Shown here in pieces: positions 23,881 to 26,192 of a stretch of DNA of 64,000 nucleotides. Where the stretch lies: contig JALUTQ010000039.1 of assembly GCA_032718865.1 (NCBI GenBank), positions 1,116,001 through 1,180,000 of the forward strand, given 5' to 3'. Below the pieces are notes generated by a model. It was given only the letters and a program-made list of their open reading frames with translations. It was not told where the DNA came from and did no database searches. The number at the start of each line of letters is the position of its first letter. The first letter of the stretch is position 1. Both the position numbers and the translations under genes were made by a program. The stretch is from Tilletia caries (taxonomy: Eukaryota; Basidiomycota; Exobasidiomycetes; Tilletiales; Tilletiaceae).

Positions 23881-26192
23881 ATGTCACAGACATCTCTTTC
23901 CATACGTCTTCCTACACCTTTGCAGAACGAAGGGTCAAGCACGACACACAAGGGCACGCTCAAGGTCGTTCTTCAACCTAGCCCTCGTCGCAGATCCAAG
24001 CTCCTCTCCAAGATTCGAGCATGGACGCTTGCGGCCCATCAGGTTCAGTACATCGCTTCCTGGTTCGCCTGCTACATCGTCGAGGCGGAGCATCGGCATC
24101 CATCGAAGCTGAAGGCATTACAGCGGGCCGGGACATACGCCGACTCGATCGACGTGCTCTCTGATACTTCGGGCACCCGTGGCGGTTCAGGACTCGGTAT
24201 TCTATTCGAGGAGTGCATGTATTATGCGAACTCCGGCAACGTACGATCGTCAAAGGGGAAGCGCCCCCCGGACGGAACGAAGCGACTTGTCTGCAAGGAA
24301 CTCGTCGCGACCCACGCTGCGGAATTCCACGCCCTCTGGCCCTTTGTGCCAAACAATGCAGAGGTTCACAGGACCGTCCTAATTGCATTCGCTGCTCAGT
24401 GGACCTCGGCTGTCATCACCCAAATACAAGAACATCTGATGAACGCCCTGGCCCACATCGTCAATAAGGTCGCCGACATCAAGAAGGCTCAAGCGCATCG
24501 TCTTGATGCAGACCCCGGCGTTGTGGCGGCTTCCAAGAATCGCCTCGCCGCCATACGACAATACAAGGCATGGCTTTTCGAGCACACGGAGAATTTAGCA
24601 CCACCGGATCTCACCGACGCTGCAATCGCAAAGGTGCATGGTAAGATTCTGCCTCTACTTGAGCAACTACCCCGCAGCGATCGAAAACGATTGGATCGAG
24701 ACCTTGAGCGCAACCCGCTGCGGTACCTTCGCTTTTTCCTTTCCGCCCTTCGATTCTTTGCTGAGGATCCAGTCTTCTGTGCAGCCCATCCTCCGATCCG
24801 CTTTCCCACCGCGCATCGGCTCGTCCCCAAGCACATTCTGTTGGACGCCGCTGCGCTATCACACCTATCGGCATCGATCCAGTACGTAGGACCTCAGCCC
24901 CAATCCACAGCTCTCGCGCTGTACGGCAAATCAAAAGAACAACTCAAGACGGAGGCGTGGGACTTCGTTTTCGACCTGACGAAGCTACCTTTCGGCTCAA
25001 CAACGCGATGGATCTTGGATGCGTCCGTTCGCACGGATGGTGTCGCTATCTCGGTTCACAAGCGGACAAACAGCAAGAAACTCTCCAAGTCGGAGGCAAA
25101 GGCGAGAAGGTTCGTGAGCTCTCGAGGATCTGCTGCAAAGGCTCGCGCAAACGCCAAAGTGCTTCAAGCCCGAGGAGACTTCCCCGAGCTCGAGACCCTC
25201 ACCGATGAGGAGGTACGCAATGCGATGGGACGGGCCGTCTTCATCGATCCTGGGAAGCGGAATCTTCTCACTGCGGTTGGAGAGCACTCCAAGTCCAAGA
25301 AGCATGGAGCCATTGTGCTTCGGTACTCTGCTGCACAGCGCGCAGCCTCGCTTGGAACGGCGATGTTCAAGAAGCGGCTTACAAAACGGGAGCTTCGAAT
25401 GGATCCCAGTCTTTCGGAGGTCATCGCAAGCCTCAGCCGGCTCAACAGCCGTGCGTTTTCTGCCTCTGCAATCTCTGCATGGCTGCAGTCAATGGCCTCT
25501 CACTTCGACAGACTTGCAAATGTCTATGGCGATCTCTTCTACCGCCAGGTGCTTCTGCGGAAGTATAGTATGCAACAGATCGAGACAACCAAGTTGATCA
25601 AGAACTTCTCTCAGAAGTTTGGTTCGGACGCCATTCTAATCTTCGGAACGTGGAATCAGACATCGGTGAGTTATGAGTTTGTGTGCGGGTGACAGGTCAG
25701 CAACGGCCAGCGACGTGCTGATTGTTGAATATACTACCTTTCATGAATCTTAGATCCGAAAGCAGCCGTCGACGCTGAAGGCAAGCACTCTACAGAAAGC
25801 TTTCTCCAAGGCCGGCTTCACCGTCTACAGCGTGGACGAGTATCTCACCAGCTCGTGCTGTCCTTTCTGCTTCGGTAGAGTGACCAGTTCTTCGAGCACG
25901 ATTCAACTGAGGCGCAAGGACGGTTTCGACCTCATGGACTCTTGGTGTGTAACAGCAAGACGTGCAAGGATGAGTGTGGAGGATCGGGTCGTTTCATGGA
26001 CAGAGACGTTATGCGGCCATGAACTTCCGTCTGATCTTCCAGCACCACGCAAACGCCATTCAAGCCGGCACAGAACGCGGTCGCCCTGCGCATCTATCTC
26101 GATCAAAGCATCCCAGTCTCTCTCAGGCACACGACGAGGTCAATCCCGACTTTGAGGAGGAGGAGGAGGAGGAGGAGGAGGAGGAGGAGTAA
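23881..26192 (+). CDS. Fanzor (eukaryotic TnpB-like RNA-guided nuclease), 3' end frameshifted
   Basis: Fanzors are eukaryotic OMEGA nucleases, related to TnpB and Cas12, that cut DNA guided by a noncoding RNA and are usually carried by transposons. Exon 1 (23881-25665) encodes 595 residues and is joined to exon 2 (from 25754) by an 88-nt intron. RuvC-I is VFIDPGKRNLL (Asp at about 456). The rearranged RuvC-II Glu lies in VDEYLTSSCCPFCFG (about 624), which also starts the zinc finger. After an apparent one-base loss at about 25880 the frame continues as RPHGLLVCNSKTCKDEC (second Cys pair) and RuvC-III FMDRDV. A second one-base loss at 26011-26012 interrupts the Asn-Ala-Ala-like segment, after which AAMNFRLIF and a (GAG)n-encoded Glu tail end at TAA 26190-26192. 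The N-terminal half is helical and Arg/Lys rich. If real, the lesions make this copy inactive; sequencing error is the alternative. Confidence 0.85.

Follow-up and report, generated by a model that had tools for sequence, protein, structure and literature searches.

We are fairly confident that a 64,000-nucleotide stretch of the Tilletia caries genome (assembly GCA_032718865.1, our G000; contig JALUTQ010000039.1, our C34, positions 1116001-1180000), hereafter the window, holds one copy, now decayed, of a Tilletia three-gene cassette, which consists of a gene for a Fanzor1-like nuclease, a middle gene and a gene for a protein with two tandem RNA recognition motifs (RRMs). This confidence covers the anatomy of the cassette; the rival explanations address its inferred working, so their likelihoods and that of the anatomy are not mutually exclusive. 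A single assembly was read (38.1 Mb, 40 contigs), and introns throughout are splice sites predicted from the DNA letters alone.

The earlier note on this DNA had called the gene a Fanzor, and the call is borne out by the homology of window exon 1 and of an intact relative to solved Fanzors. Exon 1 alone, compared with the PDB sequences, matched the Parasitella Fanzor (E 8.8e-8) and the Spizellomyces Fanzor (E 2e-5), the remaining six of the eight hits listed having E > 0.5; as the matches reach these values with exon 1 alone, a chance resemblance is excluded at the level of sequence comparison. The public protein P0003, the spliced product of a near-identical copy of the second Fanzor of the genome, matched two Fanzors only at E ≤ 0.01, PpFz1 (2.4e-20) and SpuFz1 (9.6e-15). 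Both are Fanzor1 proteins, and the window gene and its relatives thus appear to be Fanzor1-like.

The alignment places IDPGK, DEYLTSS and NRD of P0003 on IDPNK, DEYKTSS and NRD of SpuFz1, with Asp, Glu and Asp in register with the solved Fanzors. The rearranged catalytic Glu motif DE(Y/F)xTSS is present and aligns with LLDEYKTSS of SpuFz1, where Mg is coordinated by E541, D383, N385 and D606 (passages of PMC10432273), so that we read the Tilletia RuvC-II Glu as the putative counterpart of E541. The Fanzor1 motif D-X(125,275)-[TS][TS]-X-X-C4 zinc finger-X(5,50)-RD, as defined in a section of PMC3627910, occurs in P0003 (D452, 170 residues to TSS 623, Cys 627/630/661/666, R679-D680) and in the third copy, L003 (D504, 194 residues, Cys 703/706/740/745, RD 758, in stop-to-stop numbering). 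Family profiles responded weakly: PF07282, the TNB zinc-finger domain with a cut-off of 26.3 bits, was just exceeded by exon 2 of the second copy (27.7 bits), with whole P0003 (22.4), window exon 2 (17.8) and L003 (15.3) below it, and among the NCBIfam queries P0003, P0006 and L003, P0003 weakly resembled TnpB (E 0.003, 16.9 of the 100 bits needed). PHROGs profiles gave no result for the Fanzor, middle and third proteins. In the protein collection PF26935 is listed for P0001, P0002, P0003 and P0008, and a profile search of this collection for Fanzors returned five proteins, four of them from Tilletia.

In the window the gene is broken. Exon 2 of the intact relative, used as query, matched three successive pieces in three frames (25754-25930, 25906-26016 and 26001-26186), and the parts of the window copy are as follows.

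23881..25665, + strand: Fanzor exon 1, 595 open codons, with RuvC-I IDPGKRN (Asp codon 25246)
25666..25753, + strand: predicted Fanzor intron, gtgagt...ttag, phase 0, position common to both relatives
25754..25930, + strand: first frame of Fanzor exon 2, with the RuvC-II Glu (codon 25838), TSS and the first Cys pair
25906..26016, + strand: second frame of Fanzor exon 2, after the first change, with the second Cys pair and the RuvC-III RD (26002)
26001..26192, + strand: third frame of Fanzor exon 2, after the second change, with the C-terminal tail, which finishes in (GAG)12

The first Cys pair of the zinc finger (25859, 25868) therefore stands in a different frame from the second (25948, 25963) and RuvC-III, and no single frame of the window holds the Fanzor1 motif, the pieces of which are spread over three. 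With half of its zinc finger and RuvC-III in other frames, the window copy is a pseudogene of the Fanzor1-like family. The motifs VFIDPGKRNLL, VDEYLTSSCC and FMDRDV that the earlier note had listed are all present and the intron it had mentioned is predicted at 25666-25753, in phase 0, but the motifs had been read across three frames, and the single protein assumed for 23881..26192 cannot be encoded, since the frame changes twice. The Glu-rich C-terminal end corresponds to a (GAG)12 microsatellite (26154-26189).

An intact Fanzor is ruled out for the window by the two frame changes between RuvC-II and RuvC-III, and an intron is ruled out as their cause because it accounts for the first change only. 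That the gene functions and both changes are introns is thus barely conceivable: exon 1 is open, and a 44-nt GT-AG stretch (25875-25918), taken as an intron, bridges the first change, but even with this splice stops appear after the second, neither relative needs an intron to stay open there, and the adjoining middle gene is also one base short. Errors of the assembly are a highly improbable source of the changes. One assembly was read, from which P0001, a T. caries protein, may also stem; against such errors, the DNA alignment with the intact relative has 13 gap columns in 25900-25999 (and one in 26000-26099), unlike a one-base error, and both neighbour genes change frame too. Since exon 1 has 595 open codons and a ratio of nonsynonymous to synonymous substitutions (dN/dS) of 0.23 against the second copy, we infer that the decay is recent; the window copy is most probably dead.

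The intact paralogues for which the earlier note had suggested a search do exist in this genome. Eleven Fanzor matches were found in the assembly, and long open frames occur at three of them, the window and two loci with unbroken relatives. The second copy (L002 or, with its surroundings, L026) lies at C34:1328472-1330789, about 186 kb from the window, is 72% identical to the window gene and has frames of 608 and 157 residues. The third copy (L003, with surroundings L027; C36:1425073-1427520) is 33-36% identical, with 816 codons open through the intron. The intron is readable at the same place in all three long copies, as gtaagt...ctgcag at 5999-6073 of L027.

Relatives of the same two genes adjoin each of the three long Fanzor copies. 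The earlier note had rightly described the two as unrecognised and, with the intron, as marks of a possible new lineage; together with the Fanzor they make up the cassette.

23865..28754: three-gene cassette, Fanzor (+), middle gene (+) and tandem-RRM gene (-), given as the extent of the match to the second copy
26501..27534, + strand: middle gene, 3 or 4 exons at about 26501-26776, 26862-26968, 27056-27367 and then to about 27534
27772..28734, - strand: third gene, 321 aa, tandem RRM-like

The second cassette copy (C34:1325976-1330805) is on the opposite strand about 186 kb off and aligns as one DNA match of 4985 columns with 73.9% identity. In bins of 100 bases the identity of the window to L026 is mostly 64-91% in coding sequence, 49-70% in the internal spacers and 14-46% in the flanks, which we took as unrelated. 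Position 28754 is no proven right edge of the cassette, as a relic on C33 (L042) matches the window as far as 28825. In L027 relatives of the middle and third genes also adjoin the Fanzor, the orientation of which is flipped relative to both. dN/dS is well below 1 for both genes tested. To the right of the match, the window has a perfect 17-copy CCTCCTCT microsatellite (29223-29359).

The third protein is predicted to consist of two tandem RRMs, an RNA-binding type of fold. The structure model of P0006, a relative from T. controversa, has the beta-alpha-beta-beta-alpha-beta fold twice, with an extra helix in the first block, and Foldseek and VIA comparisons support the assignment. P0006 resembles the tandem RRM proteins HuR, U2AF65, PUF60 and PABP in fold and tandem arrangement, but identities among the Foldseek rows listed are 10-18%, P0006 has no Pfam match and the sequence relatives found all come from Tilletia. 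In the protein collection these are, apart from the protein of the window, P0006 and P0007 (T. walkeri), from 7998 scored candidates limited to proteins with short words in common. A PDB sequence search with the third protein gave a best E of 0.42, and NCBIfam returned nothing for P0006. The gene is found at the same three places as the middle gene, as the relic on C33 and as a 323-bp fragment on C34 (L043) that is identical to L026; in the window its last 30-40 codons are in another frame than in the L026 counterpart. A near-perfect 81-bp palindrome (L026 817-897) adjoins the RRM gene of the second copy, beside the 323-bp piece that recurs with 100% identity on C34. In the window, 38276-39326 (80%) and 53555-54260 (92%) are repeats common to the neighbourhoods of the RRM-gene remnants L043 and L042.

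A genome search located the middle gene at three places, each time beside a Fanzor. Its exons were derived from the L026 alignment and a splice model of L027, with the window coordinates placed by eye; in the part modelled, clean splicing of the L027 gene yields 234 residues, and its exons are 41-55% identical to those of the window and L026. The gene appears to belong to no known family: the spliced L027 protein matched no Pfam family at E ≤ 10, the best E in a PDB sequence search was 1.7, and PF08939 (Bles03/DUF1917), considered as a candidate family, had no genome match in a search whose control was silent too.

Upstream of the Fanzor the window holds a further gene.

21900-23042, upstream of the Fanzor: gene for an AAA ATPase, one unit with the Fanzor in the public models P0001 and P0002

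Window exon 1 is 100% identical to part of P0001 (T. caries) and 99% identical to part of P0002 (T. controversa), and both of these public models join the Fanzor to the AAA ATPase (AAA domain of P0001, E 1.2e-32). The fusion is probably a gene-prediction artefact, as the last ATPase frame reaches its own stop at 23040-23042.

A candidate for the guide RNA (omegaRNA) was found at the third copy. A 56-nt stretch ending in GAGACCTAAAATG finishes 246 nt past the Fanzor stop of L027, and with a 70-base query (E ≤ 10) this end was present at all three places found: L027, C3, where it comes with the last ~28 Fanzor codons, and C36:1209508, where it stands beside a 68-nt internal piece. The three ends share the same last base and differ in the sequence beyond. 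The 56 nt fold as one hairpin of -21.1 kcal/mol (z -3.5, 200 shuffles), and z stays above -2.6 in all 76 control windows of 130 nt taken from L027; for the 131 nt ending one base beyond the L027 end z is -2.62, with 2 of 200 shuffles equally good. An omegaRNA that forms the right end of an element and has ghost loci would be expected to show such recurrence, which makes this end a candidate guide RNA seen in DNA alone. The locus L057 (508-627) has the third Fanzor's right end head to head with the 68-nt internal piece, flanked on either side by CGAGATG, a possible 7-bp duplication. The earlier note had remarked that fungal Fanzors usually carry their own guide RNA; next to the window copy a structure scan of the 3' flank and a covariance model found none.

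The third copy lies within a gene for a GH85 glycosidase that is split in two. Its C-terminal portion (profile 184-302) stands to the right of L027. Apart from this, the GH85 matches located in the assembly cover N-terminal portions (profile 10-59 and 59-179), which are on the same strand and end 10.97 kb further left; the halves are L048 5202-5903 and L027 6876-7451 (C36:1416202-1428451). The GH85 gene is split by an 11-kb mosaic of repeats and pieces found elsewhere, and the third cassette therefore arrived by insertion, in one or several steps. The piece beside the left GH85 half (L048 5929-7089) is 89% identical to C1:2197798-2199014 and may be a captured acyl-CoA oxidase fragment with introns. 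The 10-mer CATGCCCGGT is present at both junctions of the 11-kb stretch; as its left occurrence also starts the C1-matching piece, target duplication and microhomology are indistinguishable here. About 90 bp before the start of the third Fanzor, a 234-bp piece (L027 3909-4142) consists of two joined ends of a longer repeat, which are separated by 5.4 kb on C3 and C34 but by 1.4 kb on C30 (L044, L046, L047, L049). This longer repeat is a candidate tyrosine-recombinase retroelement, as it seems to have reverse-transcriptase/RNase H-like and tyrosine-recombinase-like open reading frames.

That a host cluster resident in the genome was duplicated as a segment long ago, with a domesticated Fanzor and an immobile unit, is quite unlikely. 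The intron position common to all three copies, the presence of two copies on one contig and the lack of any terminal inverted repeat (TIR) or secure target site duplication (TSD) found would suit such a cluster, but the third copy lies inside the split GH85 gene, its end is met again at two further loci, up to the same last base, and the copies decay.

We tentatively propose the following working, granting that it may well not hold. An unbroken Fanzor would bind RNA transcribed from the right end of the element, the bases just past this end would serve as guide, the Fanzor would cut the matching site, and repair from the occupied copy would keep or spread the cassette in a homing-like manner; help for the guide RNA in stability, processing, export or loading would come from the RRM protein, possibly joined by the middle protein. 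The fuller notion of a eukaryotic OMEGA (obligate mobile element-guided activity) system, in which the tandem-RRM protein, inherited with the Fanzor, handles the guide RNA together with the middle protein, and RNA-guided cutting and repair allow spread without a transposase, is decidedly doubtful.

The main rival holds that the Fanzor, middle and RRM genes are co-passengers of an unrecognised transposon or repeated segment and that the partners do nothing for the Fanzor. We rate it as somewhat unlikely, although the 11-kb mosaic around the third copy, partial copies of single cassette members and a middle gene broken in two of its three copies (one base short in the third exon in the window relative to L026, and in L026 itself one base short with a stop) speak for it, since the genes remained linked even as Fanzor identity fell to 33-36% and one Fanzor was flipped, and since dN/dS is well below 1 in both genes tested.

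Like the broken middle gene, several further observations weigh against the cassette and the working proposed for it. The AlphaFold model of P0003 (5 sequences) has a mean predicted local distance difference test score of 39.4, too poor for a fold comparison, so that the Asp-Glu-Asp triad is placed solely by alignment with the solved Fanzors. Pfam gave no family for P0006 at E ≤ 10 or for the window's third protein at E ≤ 1; the C33 RRM-gene relic has no Fanzor, and the Fanzor fragments on C40 and C22 have no partner genes within the 9.9 kb read. The candidate omegaRNA end (L027 6644-6769) belongs to the third copy only, and its structure signal is of moderate strength, with its centre at the end hairpin, as sliding 100-nt windows over the end reach just z -1.3 to -2.0 and two nearby -2.2. 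The L026 3' flank has at most one 100-nt window near z -2.2 and nothing clearly structured, and in the window no 100-nt window of 26060-27499 falls below z -2. Covariation is uncountable in the three right ends because they are nearly identical, a covariance model run on 14 sources recovered its own three sequences only, and no guide-RNA expression was seen. Since the 11-kb stretch is a mosaic, the third cassette may have come in by more than one step; neither a transposase nor a secure TSD was found around it, nor a convincing TIR, the pattern for right-end inverted repeats being too loose to exclude one.

Comparison with described Fanzors, for which we draw on parts of PMC10432273, PMC3627910 and PMC10711439, sets the cassette apart in several respects. 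PpFz1 of Parasitella parasitica (PDB 9cf0) is the best match among solved structures (2.4e-20), yet distant, and with SpuFz1 of Spizellomyces punctatus (PDB 8gkh) the C-terminal nuclease half aligns, including Asp, Glu, four Cys and Asp. SpuFz1 has a conserved scaffold at the right end, a variable 14-15 nt beyond it and ghost loci (PMC10432273). The Spu-1 element and L027 both have a structured end after the stop, conserved to one base and variable beyond, and such ends without the whole gene; however, the Tilletia genes have an intron and two conserved neighbours, the 30-nt inverted repeats of Spu-1 were not found in Tilletia, and the distance from stop to end is 246 nt in L027 versus the 80-nt region named for Spu-1 (PMC10432273). 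In the transposons of Bao and Jurka (2013, PMC3627910) a Fanzor is likewise united with other genes, but in the parts consulted the co-encoded proteins are transposases, recombinases, an endonuclease and a methyltransferase, unlike the Tilletia partners; elements without detected TIRs exist there as well. The portions of PMC3627910 at hand have no occurrence of 'RNA-binding', and where 'RNA binding' is used the text deals with L1 ORF1p. None of the sections covered of the three papers describes an RRM protein as a conserved partner of a Fanzor. In open-licence PMC we found no paper on Fanzor or TnpB in Tilletia or on Fanzor in basidiomycetes, and papers combining Fanzor with 'RNA recognition motif' concern, in the text retrieved, CRISPR-Cas.

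To our knowledge, Fanzors have so far been described as one protein and one RNA, usually transposon-borne. The new point would be a dedicated RRM partner, with a putative role, of an RNA-guided eukaryotic nuclease. Two neighbours, one of them with two domains of RNA-binding type, have been kept down to about one third Fanzor identity, which suggests that some eukaryotic RNA-guided nucleases may have protein partners. Guide and target can be searched for directly in this cassette, a defined unit with unbroken copies, a candidate for the end of the guide RNA and two ghost loci whose flanks are readable.
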